32,789 bases of DNA, taken from a virus. Below, piece after piece: positions 14,551-29,490 of the stretch. The position numbers and the translations under genes are program-made. Numbering within the stretch: the first letter of the stretch is position 1; every line of letters begins with the position of its first letter. Below the pieces are notes generated by a model that searched no databases, was not told the origin of the DNA, and worked only from the letters and a program-made list of their open reading frames with translations. Where the stretch lies: positions 1 to 32,789 of IMG/VR virus record IMGVR_UViG_3300025141_000426, one strand, 5' to 3'.

Positions 14551-16455
14551 TTATGTTAATTCAACTTCTTTTTCTTTATCAAGAGATTTTATATCAACAT
14601 CTATTTCACATTGTCCTCCAGCACATGCTAATTCACCAGTTAAGTTAGTATTGTCATCTAATTCAACAACTTTACTTAAATCAACGTCTTTTAAAGATTT
14701 CATCATTTCATTATATTTTTCTTCAGTGATATCTTCAAATGGTGCCTGAGTGTAAGTACCCCCATTATAAGGTAATACAGATAAACCATTATAAGCTTTT
14801 CTATTTTCCCACATCCATTCACCAGCTTTATCCCATTCATCTTCTTTTAAACTAATCGTTGCAGATACGTTATGTGAGTTAGACCCATTTCTGTGTCCTG
14901 ACCTTACCCACTCTATTGCGACTTTTTTAACCCTTTCTAATAAATCAAAAGGTGATTCAGTTCTTAGAATAGAACCTTCAGGAGCTTTTTGTGGTATACT
15001 AATTACAGCAGTGTCATGTGGTCTGAAATACTCATCTTCAACTAATTCTGGATGATTAATGTTTAAGTAACTATAAATTGCTTCATTCTTACCAACTCTA
15101 ACTCTTCTAATATAATAATCATTATGCCAAGCGTGAATACCTGATGATGTTCCTAATGTCAATGATGTTGTTCCTGCAGGTTTTACTGTTGTACATCTTG
15201 CGGAAGGATTTATGTCTATTAGTTTGGAAACTCTCGTGTTTTCTCTTTTAACTAAACTAGCGGATTTTTTCATGTCATAGTTTAAAACTTTACCCGAACC
15301 AATACCTGTCATTGATACCCCAATAAGAGCGTCCTTTTCAGTTGTTTCTTGCCATATTTCTCTTAGATAGTGGAAAGAAGTATATCCCGCTTGGAGTGTT
15401 CCAATAAATGCTGCTGCTTTTACTCTTTCATTTAGGTCATCTTGAGATTCTATATTTGATACATTTACTTCACAAAGATTACAGAATTGGTTTGGTCTTA
15501 GAGCAATTTCACAGCAAGGGTTTGTTCCCCAATCTTTATCGTTATTAAGATATATACCAGGTTCTCCTGCTCCTGATAATTCTACTCTTTTCCACAAATC
15601 CATAAAGAACTCTCTAGTTATTTTATGTCTCATTAGACATGCTGAATTATTAGCTCTACCTCTTTGTGGGTTGAGTTCCCACCAGTTACCAGCTTTGCAT
15701 CCAATCATAGCATCGTCATCAGCACTAAACAAACTAATAAGAGCGGCTCTACGAATACCACCGGCCAATACTGCGTCTGCAATATGACAGACGATATCAT
15801 GTACTTCAATTGTTGTAAGTTGTTCTCCATTTTCTTTTTGATTTAATAGACCTTCTATCTTCACTAAACATTCTTTAAGTGGTTGAGGTCCTGGTGCTTT
15901 ACCACCCGATGTTATTAATCTAGCTCCTTTAGGTCTAATATCAGAATAATCAAACTCTACTCTACTACCCCCACCATTCATATATGTTTTCATTAAAACT
16001 TTAATCGCGTCTGCCCAACCTTCAATTGAATCTCCAATTAAAAATCTTCTAGTTCTTTTTGGGTACGGCTGTGATATTACTGGTAATTTTGCTACATGAT
16101 GCTTTTGTACCGAGTAACCAACACCTGTACCACCTAATAATAGAAACATTGTTTCACTAAAAGAATCAATATGGTCAATAGGTACATAAGCACAATTGTA
16201 AATTCTATTTGGACTAATCTCAATAGGTTTACCACCGAATTGCATACTTCTCATTGATGGTAATACTTTTTTATCGTATACGAACTTATATTTTTGTTCT
16301 ATTTCTTCTTTTAAATGCGGATATTTTTTTATGTGCATTTTTTTATTTCGGGTAACTAATTCATCCCATGTTTCTCTTCTATTTAGTTCCGGTATATACT
16401 TAGCGTACTTCATGTAGACAGTAATATCCGACAGAATCTTATTTGATACTTCCAT
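14551..16455 (-). CDS. nrdJ: Adenosylcobalamin-dependent (class II) ribonucleotide reductase
   Basis: A 634-aa monomeric class II reductase that would convert ribonucleotides to deoxyribonucleotides using coenzyme B12 to make the active-site thiyl radical. Key parts are visible: the first redox Cys in RIYNCAYVP (C88); LLLGGTGVGYSVQ (about 105-117); the thiyl Cys, Glu and second redox Cys in NPCCEIALRPNQFC (C314, E316, C325), spaced exactly as C408, E410 and C419 of Lactobacillus leichmannii RTPR; a phosphate-binding KPAGTTSLTLGTSSGIHAWH; and a C-terminal CAGGQC swivel-type Cys pair. It is somewhat shorter than RTPR (about 739 aa). No ATP-cone or intein was seen. It starts 14 bases after the helicase gene, in the replication operon, to feed phage DNA synthesis. 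Confidence 0.9.
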   Translation of the reverse strand: MEVSNKILSDITVYMKYAKYIPELNRRETWDELVTRNKKMHIKKYPHLKEEIEQKYKFVYDKKVLPSMRSMQFGGKPIEISPNRIYNCAYVPIDHIDSFSETMFLLLGGTGVGYSVQKHHVAKLPVISQPYPKRTRRFLIGDSIEGWADAIKVLMKTYMNGGGSRVEFDYSDIRPKGARLITSGGKAPGPQPLKECLVKIEGLLNQKENGEQLTTIEVHDIVCHIADAVLAGGIRRAALISLFSADDDAMIGCKAGNWWELNPQRGRANNSACLMRHKITREFFMDLWKRVELSGAGEPGIYLNNDKDWGTNPCCEIALRPNQFCNLCEVNVSNIESQDDLNERVKAAAFIGTLQAGYTSFHYLREIWQETTEKDALIGVSMTGIGSGKVLNYDMKKSASLVKRENTRVSKLIDINPSARCTTVKPAGTTSLTLGTSSGIHAWHNDYYIRRVRVGKNEAIYSYLNINHPELVEDEYFRPHDTAVISIPQKAPEGSILRTESPFDLLERVKKVAIEWVRSGHRNGSNSHNVSATISLKEDEWDKAGEWMWENRKAYNGLSVLPYNGGTYTQAPFEDITEEKYNEMMKSLKDVDLSKVVELDDNTNLTGELACAGGQCEIDVDIKSLDKEKEVELT

Positions 16456-19379: not shown

Positions 19380-19814
19380 TTACTTTACTATTTCTAACAA
19401 TTCAATTTCAAAACTTAAATCTTCACCAGCTAAAGGATGGTTCATATCTAAATCTACACTTTCTTCGTTAATTTTTACTACTTGTCCTTGTACTGGTCTA
19501 CCTTTGTCATCTTGTCCTTGGATAAACCCGTTTAGTTCATATTTTAGTGATTCTGGGAATTCACTTTTTTTAACTGATATTATGGCCTCGTTAATGTACT
19601 CCCCATAAGCTTCTTTAGCTTTAATATCTATTTTAGTAGTAGTACCTATCTCTAAGTCTTTAACAGCATCATTAAATCCTTTTAATAATTGACCATCGTC
19701 AATTACAAATTCTAGTCCTTCACCCCTCTCTCTTGAGTTATCGAATTTTGAACCGTCTTTTAGTGTCCCTACGTAATGGACTTTTACTTTATCTCCTGAT
19801 TTTATTTTAGTCAT
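19380..19814 (-). CDS. FKBP-type peptidyl-prolyl isomerase, SlyD-like
   Basis: A 144-aa FKBP-type isomerase/chaperone. The N-terminal half shows KVKVHYVGTLKDGSKFDNSR and the GLEFVIDDGQLLKGFNDAVK region. Residues about 68-120 form an insert-in-flap-like chaperone domain (VKKSEFPESLKYELNGF onward). The C-terminal strand is the family's MNHPLAGEDLSFEIELLEI. It lacks the His/Cys-rich metal-binding tail of E. coli SlyD. Its ATG overlaps the end of uvsX by 8 bases (ATGACTAA), so the two are probably co-translated. Such a gene inside a phage replication operon is unusual. It may help fold Pro-rich phage proteins, including the giant tail proteins of this window, but that is a guess. Confidence 0.92.
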   Translation of the reverse strand: MTKIKSGDKVKVHYVGTLKDGSKFDNSRERGEGLEFVIDDGQLLKGFNDAVKDLEIGTTTKIDIKAKEAYGEYINEAIISVKKSEFPESLKYELNGFIQGQDDKGRPVQGQVVKINEESVDLDMNHPLAGEDLSFEIELLEIVK

Positions 19815-22856: not shown

Positions 22857-25800
22857 TTAAGAACGTGTTCTAGGTAAGAAAGCTGCTGGATTCAAATAGT
22901 GTTCTACTATCTTTCCTTCTTGTTTTACACCTCTTTTTATCTCAAAATGTAAATGTACACTTTTAGAGAGTCCACTATTACCCATTTTCCCAATTACAAT
23001 ATTTCCTGCACCGGCCCCTATTTCACCTCGTTGTATTGGGTCATTTAGATTTACGGTTATCCCTTCTCGTAAAAATGCGTAACGTGTAAGGTAATAAGCA
23101 GTCCCTTCTTCAGGTGGGTCAGTATTTAATGTAGTTTTAACCTCAACATAGTTACCGTATTTACCACAAGATTCACTCTCTTGTAGTGGTTTACAACCAT
23201 CAACTACTTTACTTACTACCCCATATACCGCGGCATATATTGGTATTCCCCCGTTCTCATCGTTCGCTACTTCTAAATTATCAGAAGTAGGACAAATATC
23301 TACACCTAAATGGGTCTTTTCTGGGTCTTCGTTTGGTGTAACTATGAATGTGCCCGCACTTAAAGTAACATCCACCCATCTAACATTATCAATATCTAAT
23401 GGGGGTGTTTGGTAGGTCACACCACTTGCTATATAATTATTTTGTTTAGGGGTTAGTTTTTTCTGACTTTCTGTTGCACTTAACCCATCATAATATAAGT
23501 CTAATGGTATTTTATCTAACCTATCCTCCGCTTTTTCATATAATTTAATATTAACTCTTTGTACCAAATCACTTATAGCTGGTAGTGTTGGTCGTGGTAC
23601 TCTAACACCCTCAAATGTTGTTTCTATAGTATTTGGTCTGATTTCATGTTCAACATTAATAATTAAATAAGGCCCATTAAACATGGGTAAATATCTTAGT
23701 TGGAAATATTGGGTTGGTTGGATTGTGACGTTACCAACACATGTAACTCTTGCAGTATATGACCTACTCGCATATACATTAAATAAAGAGACTGATGCTG
23801 GAGACGCAGCTCCTCCCCCACCCGAATCTGCCATACTCTGTAATACTTTGAAACTCTCTGAAGTATTTTGGAATTGTGATTGGTCTAAAGTTATTGATTC
23901 AAAAATATTTTGGTTTGGTATACCGAAGTCTACGTTGAATCCCATGACCTTATTAGATAATTCTTTATTTCCACATTCTTGAGTGACTAGTGGTGAATTA
24001 GGTGAATTATAGTTAAATGAGTCGTTATTGTAACCATTATTAGGTGTTTTAGAATTTAACTGTGATGACGGTTTACCAACATACTGACATAAAAAAGCTG
24101 GTGCAGAATCTATATAATCTACTGTTTTAAATGTACCAAACATAGCGTTTCCTTGAGCTTGAGTGTCCGTACCTTTTTTCTCTACATTAAAGAAATTGAT
24201 ATAGGAAGGTAAGGGTATGAAATTAAAGTAATTATTAGCTAATATAATACTGAGGTAACTTGATACACTCTGAGTTAATGTTTTAGAGTTGGTGTCCGTG
24301 AAGGGAGAATCTAACTTTAATATGTCCCATATGTTAATGATTGCTTCATCCCCAATATCTTGATTTGCTCTGTCTAAAAATAAAAATTTCTCAAATAGTG
24401 TTTGGTCGGTGAGATTGGTCCCCGATACCCATCTATCATTTATTGTTTTAAATTGGTTGTACAGTTCTAATTTTAAATCGTCTGATTTAACTTCTGGTCT
24501 ATCATCAGTTATCACATCTATTGTCACATCATCTGTTTCTAGGTTTTGTTTTATGTGTTTTTTAAGGTCCTCTAGTAACATATCAATATAAAGTTCGTTT
24601 AGATTTCGTGTGGAGTGTATCTGTTGCATGAATATGTTTAAAAATTCATTTGCGGTTGTCGTTGGGTGGAGGGTCGTATATGAAGCATATAATTTAATGA
24701 AGGGTGCAAATAATCTAATGTTAGTAACATTAAATGTTATCCCACCCCCTATTTCATTACCATTAATTGTTTTGAAAAAATTATACATGGGATTGGAGTC
24801 GTCTGCTGTTATAAGTAAATTAAATTGCATGTCACCACCACCATAAAACTCACCAACCTCAAGTCTCATTGCTTGATATTCTATTGGGTTTCCGATGAAA
24901 AAATTACCACTTGTAGGTACTTGGAGTCCGTCCGCGTAAGTACCGTATATTTCACTTATATTGGTGGTACCGTCTAGGTCTGGTACTCCTCCATTAATTG
25001 TCCACATTTGGGACAATCTTTGTAGTAAAGTTTCACTATTTACAACCAAATCTAAATTAGTAGTACTTCTATGAATATATTCTACTTTTCTATTTAAGAA
25101 ATGGAACATTGTAGAGTTAAATTTTAATAGTTGTGCTTCTGCTAATATCTGACTATTTGGTGTTTGCGGGGTTTCTGTAACGGAGTTAACCCAAGTATCT
25201 TCAACAACTACTAACTCTTTAATTAACCCTTTTAACGAACCACCCAAAGCAGTAGAACCTCCTGGTTTAGAGAAAACTAAAAATTCTTGTTCAAATTCAT
25301 CTAGTTGTTCTTTATTAAATACACCCCTTAATACCTCAATAGTCTCATATATAGATTGTTGATTAAAACTCCAGTCTTCTTGTTCATTTTGTGTGTTATT
25401 AATCATTTTAAAGTATTGACCCGCAGTGGATTGATAACCTGCCTGGTGTTCAAAATACCCATAATTTGATGCTCCCCATAAAATTCTACTAGCTCCATTA
25501 TGTAGAGCTGCATTACCATATGTTGGTGCATCATAAGTAGATGCGTCTGTCCCTTGAAGTCCACCGGATGATGGGTATAGTATAGTGTACTTCTGTGGTG
25601 CTGGTTCGTTGGTTGGTGTAAGCCCAAAAGAAGGGCTTAAGATGTTAGATGAACTTAGGTAGACACTATAGAACTTTACGTCTACACCATCCGACGCAGT
25701 ATAGTTAATATCACTATTAGGTTCTATTGTTAGTTGAGCGTTTCCAGCAGCATCTATAAGGTTATTTAATACTTGTCCTGCCCCTATATTACTATAAGTA

Positions 25801-28800
25801 GTATTATTGGTTGCTATATAGTTAACAGCATCTATTAGTCCTGGGTACACACCTACTTGCATAATAGTATTGTTTGCTGTATTATCTTGTGTTACATAAG
25901 GATACGGTCCTGATGTTGACACACCACCATCACTACTTGACATGAATGAATAGTGACTAGTTGCATTTAGGGGTGCTTCATACACACTAGTCGGTCCCAC
26001 ATAACCTAATTGAGTTACCACCCCAATATCACCCCAAATAGAATTTAATGGGTCTATTTGTGTTTGGACTTCTGTTTTATATCTCCACCAAACTGACCCA
26101 ATTCTTAATATCAATGCTACTGGTAAATTATGTATAGCTGGCATTTGGTTAAACATCTGAGAGATATAGTTACCGAATTTATTATTATCCCCATCTTTAT
26201 ATAACGCTTTTTCTCTTAGTGTAGGAATTGGTAATGAATTTAAAAATAGATAAGCGGCTTGTGTGTAAGGTGATGGGGTTACGTTACTCTTCTCCGCTGC
26301 TACACCTGCCACTAATGCATTTATAAAATATGGTGTATTTAACATAGATGTCATCCTTACTGGTGGGGTTGTAATATTAGACCCCCCACCTGGTATAGTC
26401 ACTGTTGTTGGTGTTCGTTTTACTTCACCTTCTGTTATGAATTTATGTTCCACAAATGACTCATACGCTTCATTTGCGGTGGTAAGTGTGTTTAAAGCAT
26501 TTGCGTTTTCTTTTCGTTCTATTAGTTTTTCTTGGTCCGTATCTATGAATGATGAGTTTGAGTATTTAGCTTTTGTTAGATATAGAGTACTCCAAGTGTC
26601 GGTTAAAACATTTTTTTCATTTATATCATATTGTACGTTTTTGTTTATATCAAAAAATTGGTTACTTCCTAAAGTATCTCCATTAGCAAAATTCGCTCTA
26701 ACCCAATTACCAAAAATACAAGGTGCTAAGTCATATAAACCATTGGTTTTTCCATCTAATAATGCATCACTATTCTTTTCGAAACTTTGATTCTTAACTG
26801 TAAATCTTGATTTCTTATAGTTTAGGGTGAATGTTGGTTTTATTGTAAATGGGGTAACTGTTTGATACGCTGAATACAATCGCAGTCTGAATGGAGCGGA
26901 TTCGTTTAAAATCTGAAATATTTGGTTGAGTCCCCCTAGGTCCATAAAAACTTGTTTCTGGGTACTATAATTTTTAATTCGTTGATATAGGTTTAAGGCG
27001 TCATATTGTGCTAGTTCTACTATGGCAGAACCAACCCTGTTTGGTATCCCTCCCCCAAACATACCTGCGTATCTAGAAGCTAACCCACCATTTAGTGTCG
27101 CTTGTTGAGCTCTCCCTAATATTTCGAACCATATATCTAAATCTTCAACACTAGAGTATGGGGTGTCTATAGGGGGCCAATCATACACTGTTATGGGTGT
27201 CCAATCCTTATCTACACTTTCATTTGCTACTGGTGGACTAAACAAACTAAATTTATAATTCGTTGCTTTCGTATATTCTTCGACAAACTCTACTTCAGGC
27301 CATATTTTTGGGTTATTAGCTAAAGTTTGAGCTATCACATCTGACGCACCTGGATATGTTAAAACAGAATTAGTTGTAGTGCAGTTACCACCTTTTTGTT
27401 GTTCTTCAATTTTATAATATTGGGGCCATGGATAAACTATTTGGTTGGTTGCGTTGGAGTCGTCAGATGAAACTGCAACCGCTAATCTTTGTTCATTTTG
27501 TCTCTGAGCAAATGCGTCTGTATGTACATCATCTAAAAGTTTTAAAAAAGTATCTGCACCGGCTAATATTATAGCAAAAACATTTCTAATTGTAGGTTTA
27601 AATCCTATAGCTTTTTGTAATTTACCATTCAATTTATTACTCAGGTCTTCTGCCATCATTTTTGCCTTCGTATCAAAAAGTCTTTTAGTTGTTGTCCAGA
27701 TGAATAGGAAGCTACTTGCATCTCCCTGAAACATAAACCAAGGTGCGAGATTTTGTGGTAATTGGGAAGTTGTTCCTGCTCCTCCTGTTGCAAGTTGGAC
27801 GTTACCCTTTATCTGAGAATTTTCAAAAATATCGTAGGTGGGGTCACTAAATCTAGTTGCTACGGAATATTTCCCACCTTCTATTTGACTTCTCGCTTTA
27901 AAAGTAGGGTTTTGTTGTAATAGAGTAAGGTATTTTTTCACTATAGATGCTAATGCATTTTGGGCTTCCTCAACTAATTTCTGTTGTTTTTCTTGTCTTT
28001 TAGTTGGGTCTGTTTCTGAGGTGGCGGCGGACATCCCTTTTAAAGAATAAGCTTGCGTAGTAACTGTTTTACCGGTATTTGGTACTGTAGGGGTTGGTTG
28101 TCCTGGTATTGGTGGGTATGGTGGTTCGTCAACAAGTACGTTTCTAATACCCGATGATTTTGTATTACAGTATTTTCCAACCCAACCCTTCTTACCTATT
28201 ACGGCCTTTTTAAATTTTTCTAATGTTTCTTCATATTCTAATTTATGGGTGGTACTCTCCAAACTAGCTTGCCCGAAAACTTGAGCCATATCATTATCTA
28301 TAGATTGTATTTTTTCAATTAACTCTACAGTGGTATATTGTTTATTAAATAGATTATCCCCAATCAACCCCTTAGAATGGTATTCCCTATAAACCTCACC
28401 CAATACTTGTCTACCTTTAGTCATTTGTATATTACCACTATTTGGGTCTTGTTTTGTTGGGTACATATAAGGAGCTGTCACTGATTCGTGCATATTTACA
28501 TCCCTTAGCATTGCGATATGATTACCTTTAAAATCACACGTAACTAAATAATCACCAGATGCTGGGTCAAATCTTGAGATGAATTTTTCTAGTGTTAGTT
28601 GGTATTGTACTGCTTTACCGTAATAACCTTTAAGTGTTAAAAAGAATGTGGGGTATGGTAAATGGAAAAAAGCTGTGTAAGGCGTGTTAACTTTTGCTTG
28701 TTCAAATAATGTTTTACCCCTAACATCAGTAAAATTTATTGACACTTGTGGGATATAGGATGCGTTAACCTTAATACTTATTGATGTTATTCCGAAACCT

Positions 28801-29183
28801 TGAAAATCGTTTTGGTTACTTATACTGGTAGATGTTGTTACACCTTCTTTGGTTTTTGTTTTTATTTTTTGATTTACGTCTGGGTTAGTAAAAGCTTCTG
28901 TCCAATCGGAGTCAAAAGAATTCTTTCCTTTAGGTTTTAGGAAATTTAGTTCTCCATCCGCTATTTCTACACGAATTTCATCTCCTGCAGCTGCACCAAC
29001 CAATAACTTACTTCTAGGAAATATTTTGGCTGTAAGATTAGCGTACATTACAAAATCCTCTTGGTTAACCAACCTATCTTTTATAACACCATCTGCCCCC
29101 ACAACTTTATTAGGGTCTATGGACACAACGTTACCACCTATTTGAGTGGTTAATATGTTACCAGAATTTAAATTATCTGCCAT
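22857..29183 (-). CDS. Giant baseplate hub protein with C-terminal M23 peptidase domain (tail lysin)
   Basis: A 2108-aa protein. Near the N-terminus (about 130-230) lies a beta-rich domain with VSINFTDVRGKTLFEQAKVN and YPTFFLTLKGYYGKAVQYQL, a pattern of hub/tail-tip proteins. Residues about 1808-1865 resemble a hub barrel (YFQLRYLPMFNGPYLIINVE). Residues about 1957-2108 are an M23/LytM-type endopeptidase that would cut peptidoglycan cross-links at infection. Zinc ligands H1958, D1962 (HLGVD) and H2079, plus catalytic H2077 (HLHFE), are present, but the usual YAHL His is Phe here (F2037, RYAFL). The long middle is Asn/Thr/Tyr-rich without recognised domains. Its ATG overlaps the gp53-like gene by 11 bases, consistent with an assembled baseplate centre. 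Confidence 0.88.
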   Translation of the reverse strand: MADNLNSGNILTTQIGGNVVSIDPNKVVGADGVIKDRLVNQEDFVMYANLTAKIFPRSKLLVGAAAGDEIRVEIADGELNFLKPKGKNSFDSDWTEAFTNPDVNQKIKTKTKEGVTTSTSISNQNDFQGFGITSISIKVNASYIPQVSINFTDVRGKTLFEQAKVNTPYTAFFHLPYPTFFLTLKGYYGKAVQYQLTLEKFISRFDPASGDYLVTCDFKGNHIAMLRDVNMHESVTAPYMYPTKQDPNSGNIQMTKGRQVLGEVYREYHSKGLIGDNLFNKQYTTVELIEKIQSIDNDMAQVFGQASLESTTHKLEYEETLEKFKKAVIGKKGWVGKYCNTKSSGIRNVLVDEPPYPPIPGQPTPTVPNTGKTVTTQAYSLKGMSAATSETDPTKRQEKQQKLVEEAQNALASIVKKYLTLLQQNPTFKARSQIEGGKYSVATRFSDPTYDIFENSQIKGNVQLATGGAGTTSQLPQNLAPWFMFQGDASSFLFIWTTTKRLFDTKAKMMAEDLSNKLNGKLQKAIGFKPTIRNVFAIILAGADTFLKLLDDVHTDAFAQRQNEQRLAVAVSSDDSNATNQIVYPWPQYYKIEEQQKGGNCTTTNSVLTYPGASDVIAQTLANNPKIWPEVEFVEEYTKATNYKFSLFSPPVANESVDKDWTPITVYDWPPIDTPYSSVEDLDIWFEILGRAQQATLNGGLASRYAGMFGGGIPNRVGSAIVELAQYDALNLYQRIKNYSTQKQVFMDLGGLNQIFQILNESAPFRLRLYSAYQTVTPFTIKPTFTLNYKKSRFTVKNQSFEKNSDALLDGKTNGLYDLAPCIFGNWVRANFANGDTLGSNQFFDINKNVQYDINEKNVLTDTWSTLYLTKAKYSNSSFIDTDQEKLIERKENANALNTLTTANEAYESFVEHKFITEGEVKRTPTTVTIPGGGSNITTPPVRMTSMLNTPYFINALVAGVAAEKSNVTPSPYTQAAYLFLNSLPIPTLREKALYKDGDNNKFGNYISQMFNQMPAIHNLPVALILRIGSVWWRYKTEVQTQIDPLNSIWGDIGVVTQLGYVGPTSVYEAPLNATSHYSFMSSSDGGVSTSGPYPYVTQDNTANNTIMQVGVYPGLIDAVNYIATNNTTYSNIGAGQVLNNLIDAAGNAQLTIEPNSDINYTASDGVDVKFYSVYLSSSNILSPSFGLTPTNEPAPQKYTILYPSSGGLQGTDASTYDAPTYGNAALHNGASRILWGASNYGYFEHQAGYQSTAGQYFKMINNTQNEQEDWSFNQQSIYETIEVLRGVFNKEQLDEFEQEFLVFSKPGGSTALGGSLKGLIKELVVVEDTWVNSVTETPQTPNSQILAEAQLLKFNSTMFHFLNRKVEYIHRSTTNLDLVVNSETLLQRLSQMWTINGGVPDLDGTTNISEIYGTYADGLQVPTSGNFFIGNPIEYQAMRLEVGEFYGGGDMQFNLLITADDSNPMYNFFKTINGNEIGGGITFNVTNIRLFAPFIKLYASYTTLHPTTTANEFLNIFMQQIHSTRNLNELYIDMLLEDLKKHIKQNLETDDVTIDVITDDRPEVKSDDLKLELYNQFKTINDRWVSGTNLTDQTLFEKFLFLDRANQDIGDEAIINIWDILKLDSPFTDTNSKTLTQSVSSYLSIILANNYFNFIPLPSYINFFNVEKKGTDTQAQGNAMFGTFKTVDYIDSAPAFLCQYVGKPSSQLNSKTPNNGYNNDSFNYNSPNSPLVTQECGNKELSNKVMGFNVDFGIPNQNIFESITLDQSQFQNTSESFKVLQSMADSGGGGAASPASVSLFNVYASRSYTARVTCVGNVTIQPTQYFQLRYLPMFNGPYLIINVEHEIRPNTIETTFEGVRVPRPTLPAISDLVQRVNIKLYEKAEDRLDKIPLDLYYDGLSATESQKKLTPKQNNYIASGVTYQTPPLDIDNVRWVDVTLSAGTFIVTPNEDPEKTHLGVDICPTSDNLEVANDENGGIPIYAAVYGVVSKVVDGCKPLQESESCGKYGNYVEVKTTLNTDPPEEGTAYYLTRYAFLREGITVNLNDPIQRGEIGAGAGNIVIGKMGNSGLSKSVHLHFEIKRGVKQEGKIVEHYLNPAAFLPRTRS

Positions 29184-29490
29184 AATAGAGGAAGTGTTGG
29201 TCTAATTTAGATTTATAGTCCTCTAGTGATTGCATTAATGGGAAAGGTACAGTAATTATGGTACCATCTGGGATGTTCCATTCTTGCCCTCCGTATGTTG
29301 GGTTTGATTGCATTATAAGCCATCCATAATATGGTGAACCGTAGAATTGGTCTGATAACTTATCTAACCTAGTTTTTCCCACTTTGTAAATTATTTTTCT
29401 ATCACTAGATTTGGGAGTAAGTACAATGCTTGGTACCATTACATAGTCACCATTAATAATAAACTCATTATATCTGTTATAATAACTCAT
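29173..29490 (-). CDS. 53: Baseplate wedge protein, gp53-like with LysM-type fold
   Basis: A 105-aa protein resembling T4 gp53, the wedge component that carries a LysM-like domain and locks neighbouring wedges together. The LysM-like part is visible at about residues 33-85: a strand IIYKVGKTRLDKLSDQFYGS, then YYGWLIMQSN, a Pro/Gly turn (DGTIITVPFP), and a short helical tail. It lies 5 bases after the 360-aa gene and overlaps the giant hub gene by 11 bases. Size, fold pattern and neighbours all agree. T4 gp53 is longer (about 196 aa), so this is a short version. Confidence 0.82.
   Translation of the reverse strand: MSYYNRYNEFIINGDYVMVPSIVLTPKSSDRKIIYKVGKTRLDKLSDQFYGSPYYGWLIMQSNPTYGGQEWNIPDGTIITVPFPLMQSLEDYKSKLDQHFLYYGR

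Follow-up and report, generated by a model that had tools for sequence, protein, structure and literature searches.

The window, the whole 32,789-nucleotide stretch of viral DNA analysed here, encodes on its minus strand a presumed tail or baseplate hub protein of 2108 aa (22857..29183, ATG start) with a C-terminal M23 domain. Within this domain the TTT codon at 23073..23075 (minus strand; AAA on the plus strand) specifies Phe2037, part of the stretch TRYAFLREG, at the position held by His260 in LytM. In a profile alignment 'ryafL' of the hub protein is aligned with 'RYLHL' of ShyA, the Phe lying opposite the catalytic His, in agreement with the sequence-only reading, which had proposed that Phe replaces the equivalent of LytM His260. 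Two base changes separate TTT from a His codon. The same reading held that the rest of the active site is intact, and the translation of the ORF bears this out. The predicted zinc ligands His1958 (23310..23312) and Asp1962 (23298..23300) lie within THLGVD, and HLHFE contains both His2077 (22953..22955), the first His of HxH and the remaining catalytic His, and the third predicted ligand, His2079 (22947..22949). All four residues are encoded on the minus strand and were found in each of the 44 distinct homologous domains described below.

The M23/LytM-fold domain covers residues 1950-2108 (22860..23336, minus strand). The match of the 2108-aa protein to Pfam PF01551 (M23) is just under the cut-off (E 2e-6; 28.3 bits against 28.7), and several close relatives exceed it. 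The C-terminus also matches two PHROG peptidase/endolysin families, one of them PHROG 14988 (E 7.7e-8). An AlphaFold2 model built from an alignment of 39 rows reached pLDDT 92.2 and pTM 0.89, replacing an earlier model with pLDDT 66.9, and VIA-align placed it nearest to DipM (Z 16.7, 2.1 A, 128 aligned), EnvC (15.4), ShyA (15.3), LytM (14.2) and LECT2 (9.5). The top match, DipM, is described as an autolysin coordinator; the scores of ShyA and LytM are close to it. The C-terminal domain is therefore confidently predicted to adopt the M23/LytM fold. It resembles the LytM/lysostaphin type of peptidase family M23 (M23B) in fold and profile, in the HxGxD (HxxxD) and HxH zinc motifs and in the aromatic-x-site-Leu strand. 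It differs from M23B, and from a catalytically complete M23 endopeptidase, in lacking the non-ligand His that precedes HxH. If it is classed with the degenerate M23/LytM factors, it is one with a single catalytic residue missing and every predicted zinc ligand present.

Two further genes were observed in the window. One (19380-19814), adjoining UvsX-like and gp32-like genes, encodes an FKBP-type peptidyl-prolyl isomerase (Pfam E 9e-20). The other (14551-16455) encodes a 634-aa protein with matches to the ribonucleotide reductase barrel and to an insertion domain of B12-dependent RNR.

The carrier protein and its C-terminal slot

The name 'hub', given to the protein in the sequence-only reading, gained no sequence-family support from PDB, PHROG, Pfam or phage-record searches. 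The body of the protein matched no PDB profile and no PHROG, the phage records held no match for the whole protein or for the body of a distant homologue, and two distant homologues showed no Pfam or PHROG match supporting a hub identity. A tail role nevertheless fits, because gp25-like and baseplate-J proteins are encoded in the same window and a match to a baseplate-wedge PHROG was obtained for the gene immediately upstream (29173-29490).

The C-termini of homologues that share the body but have no M23 domain were compared. Fifteen of these 22 proteins end no more than 79 aa past the body and seven have a C-terminal module of 197-271 aa. Scanning six of the seven modules (L073, L074, L075, L077, L080 and L091) identified two M15_4/VanY, two M15_3 and two GH25 domains. 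Since relatives hold M15 or GH25 in place of M23, the C-terminus is a swappable wall-hydrolase slot, and the occurrence of M15 in four and GH25 in two of the six scanned distant homologues indicates that the common job of the slot is wall hydrolysis. The baseplate neighbours and the C-terminal lysin slot point to a tail protein, probably the baseplate hub. What is found for a virion-associated lysin is thus an M23 module fused to a large protein, baseplate-type genes nearby and M15 or GH25 replacements in homologues.

The carrier is much longer than the corresponding proteins of the phage tail M23 lysins phi29 gp13 and Tal2009. In those lysins, too, the M23 module belongs to a presumed tail protein with a presumed role in entry (PMC9662197). 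The 2108-aa protein differs from them in its incomplete catalytic set, and its virion location is presumed.

The site in homologous and background domains

Domain scans of viral contigs recovered relatives with 30-100% identity carrying YAFL, YGFL or YANL, with YAHL in the most remote. The conserved body of the protein (residues 1600-1900; 23484..24386, minus strand) was used as query for homologues, and the best 77 distinct loci of 215 relatives were retained. Together with the window these gave 55 rows in which an M23 domain could be read, comprising 41 distinct domains; left out were L063, whose contig ends before the domain, and the 22 loci without M23 motifs (L070-L091). The site was Phe in 31, Tyr in 6, Asn in 2 and His in 2 of the 41 distinct domains, and His1958, Asp1962, His2077 and His2079 were kept in all 41. 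A second scan, with the His-type protein L067 as query, returned 46 loci, of which 40 fell, by contig name, on contigs already in the set and six were new rows; it contributed three distinct His-type domains. In the resulting set of 44 (body set from the best 77 of 215 relatives) the site is Phe in 31, Tyr in 6, Asn in 2 and His in 5, so that His is absent from 39 domains whose other four active-site residues are kept. Among the homologues, the five with His are the most divergent. No cellular homologue was found in one scan of genome contigs. In L040, L041 and L042 (TIHAFLRD) His takes the place of the Tyr two residues ahead of the site and may be a catalytic His that has shifted.

Among the distinct domains the Phe codons are TTT (24) and TTC (7), those of Tyr TAT (5) and TAC (1), those of Asn AAT (1) and AAC (1), and those of His CAC (4) and CAT (1). 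The presence of both TTT and TTC in relatives shows that Phe itself is kept through synonymous change. Although a single base change would turn a Tyr or Asn codon into a His codon, His does not occur at the site in any domain sharing the Arg2039 mark of the non-His group.

This mark, Arg2039 (23067..23069, minus strand), lies two residues past the lost His. It is Arg in 39/39 non-His domains and Lys in 5/5 His-type domains, and Arg in 8 of 113 background domains among the matches listed. His2095 (22899..22901, minus strand) is similarly confined to the non-His group, being present in 36 of the 39 non-His domains (36 of the 38 rows that are readable at this position; two have Gln and one row is ended by the contig) and in none of the five His-type domains. 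The domain also has an invariant Cys1997 (23193..23195, minus strand; 44/44) and a near-invariant partner, Cys2006 (23166..23168, minus strand; 43/44), a pair (window 23166-23195) that may form a disulfide or an extra metal site.

Background viral M23 domains were collected with a DNA pattern for G-x-x-G-x-x-x-G-x-HLHFE, which is blind to the site, and an upstream HxxxD was required. All 113 distinct background domains among the matches listed have His at the site; because the pattern is biased towards canonical enzymes, the 113 are a sample and no census. Seven of the 121 listed matches were dropped because HxxxD was not in range; six of these show YxH[LMF] by eye and the last one, L225, is too short to tell.

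In a quick tree built on residues 1401-1900 of 32 near-full-length proteins, the two His rows then known were split off with SH-aLRT 98. In the remaining 30-row non-His group Phe is the commonest residue, and on the starred branches Tyr requires at least two changes. The two His rows are on long branches and the tree alone cannot separate loss from gain of His; as M23 domains generally have His here, the simpler reading is a loss at the base of the non-His group. Of 19 pairs compared, 18 gave a dN/dS of 0.058-0.151 for the M23 domain and one, near-identical, gave 0.265, values near that of the rest of the protein (many dS exceed 1, near saturation). The M23 domain is under purifying selection and is maintained. 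As judged from these alignments and the model, loss of the second His is clade-wide, with the predicted zinc ligands and the HxH His intact in a confidently predicted fold.

Possible functions of the domain

The sequence-only reading allowed for a domain that is slow, differently tuned or no more than a peptidoglycan binder. The most likely function of the domain, which we favour tentatively and at slightly less than even chances, would be that of a slow or retuned M23 lysin, borne by the virion, dependent on zinc and relying on His2077. Such a domain would still bind zinc, and would still engage and slowly cut peptidoglycan peptides during entry. Zinc would polarise the carbonyl and His2077 alone would activate the water, while an aromatic side chain (or Asn) would occupy the pocket of the lost His, possibly helped by the invariant Arg2039. 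A lysin that acts once per infection might need no more than a slow local cut, and end lysis could fall to separate amidase, lysozyme or canonical M23 proteins.

The slow-lysin reading is favoured because the zinc ligands and His2077 are kept in every distinct domain while the site varies among Phe, Tyr, Asn and His. The low dN/dS, the LytM-like fold, the M15 and GH25 hydrolases of the slot and the Arg2039 common to all non-His domains argue in the same direction, as does the finding that canonical M23, Amidase_2 or lysozyme proteins are encoded in some of the same contigs. A 14-record search for second M23 proteins identified a separate one with YCHL or YCHM in five phages with an F- or Y-type domain (L093-L096 and L098; contigs of 89-156 kb) and none above cut-off in six further non-His records; two His-type records and a remote one make up the 14. 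Of 11 larger contigs, seven encode Amidase_2 and two a phage lysozyme. When the canonical M23 proteins were used singly as queries, the scans matched only the queries themselves or one relative. The stand-alone YCHL/YCHM proteins of the five phages are possible endolysins.

Published work on the two non-ligand His bears on the slow-lysin reading in both directions. According to the M23 review, water is activated by the HxH His and the other His 'might participate' (PMC9662197), which favours a lysin with His2077 alone. On the other hand, His260 and His291 of LytM both contact the attacking oxygen and alanine at either abolishes activity, a requirement backed by the homologues lysostaphin, LasA and ALE-1 (PMC4594094, the abstract of which has 'His260 and/or His291'), and the LytU paper gives the role of base to H260 (PMC5519744); both disfavour slow cleavage. 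In the Pgp3 paper both His are called strictly conserved, and the choice of base between them is left open (PMC6978369). Also against the slow lysin, the Phe side chain cannot hydrogen-bond, the top structural match is the autolysin coordinator DipM, and the known M23 proteins with incomplete catalytic sets (EnvC, NlpD, Csd2 and LECT2) are mostly binding proteins (PMC9662197).

A further reading would make the clade a natural one-histidine M23 peptidase, cleaving peptidoglycan via zinc and the HxH His alone, with the second His changed to Phe, Tyr or Asn and an invariant Arg two residues on. We regard this as possible, though on balance doubtful.

A close rival is that the domain is a catalytically dead binder, in which the zinc site and His2077 would be kept for peptidoglycan stem peptides, zinc perhaps serving as ligand for a carboxylate or carbonyl; the domain would anchor or position the tail tip and other enzymes would cut. 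This is a serious contender, albeit one that we consider rather less than probable. The inactivation of LytM by loss of either His agrees with it, as do the Tyr204 mutants, which are inactive yet still bind peptidoglycan (PMC4594094), and the degenerate M23 proteins that act in binding, among them LECT2, which is without the catalytic His (PMC9662197). In a pure binder, however, His2077 would be expected to drift, yet it is invariant, and the same slot is occupied by M15 or GH25 hydrolases in relatives. The phage domains also differ from EnvC, NlpD, Csd2 and LECT2, with which they have in common an M23 fold with an incomplete catalytic set, in strictly keeping the three predicted zinc ligands and the HxH His.

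It seems unlikely that near-normal activity is restored by compensation, with Arg2039, His2095 or a residue of a neighbouring subunit replacing the lost His. The distribution of Arg2039 and His2095 between non-His and His-type domains is consistent with such a replacement, and EnpA, an M23 enzyme, uses an Arg at another position in an oxyanion-type role (PMC8269130, PMC9662197). By the predicted strands Arg2039 could reach the site, residues i and i+2 of a strand sharing a face. Both columns, however, changed on one deep branch, so that shared history can explain their linkage, and two non-His rows have Gln in place of His2095. There is little support for the possibility, raised by the sequence-only reading, that another His fills the site. 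His2095 is the one further His common to the non-His group, and by the register of the predicted strands it should pair across the hairpin with Arg2084 and, if the hairpin is regular, lie on the face opposite His2077 and His2079, away from the zinc.

A sequencing or assembly error, a pseudogene or a decaying relic can be discarded with near certainty, since nothing was found in its favour, relatives in many contigs from different metagenomes carry the same residue, dN/dS is low and both Phe codons are in use. These comparisons indicate that Phe2037 is neither an error nor a one-off; it belongs to a clade-wide Phe/Tyr/Asn state and is a stable variant.

A natural variant of the M23 active site

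Incomplete M23 domains as such are known; what appears to be new here is a large clade that has lost the H260-site His only, the rest being strictly kept. In the literature covered on M23 proteins with missing catalytic residues, mostly from outside the subscription journals, we recognised no description of this phage protein or of one in which the H260-site His is naturally replaced and the zinc ligands are intact.

How M23 enzymes divide the work between their two non-ligand His is unsettled in print (PMC4594094, PMC9662197). The clade is a natural experiment on this question, with Phe, Tyr, Asn and His at one site on a related scaffold and, in some phages, a His-bearing M23 protein as well. 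These natural variants make the two-His question testable, and would show whether a phage entry lysin is weak by design or has been turned into an anchor. If the clade does consist of one-histidine peptidases, the 'conserved' second His would be dispensable in the right context.
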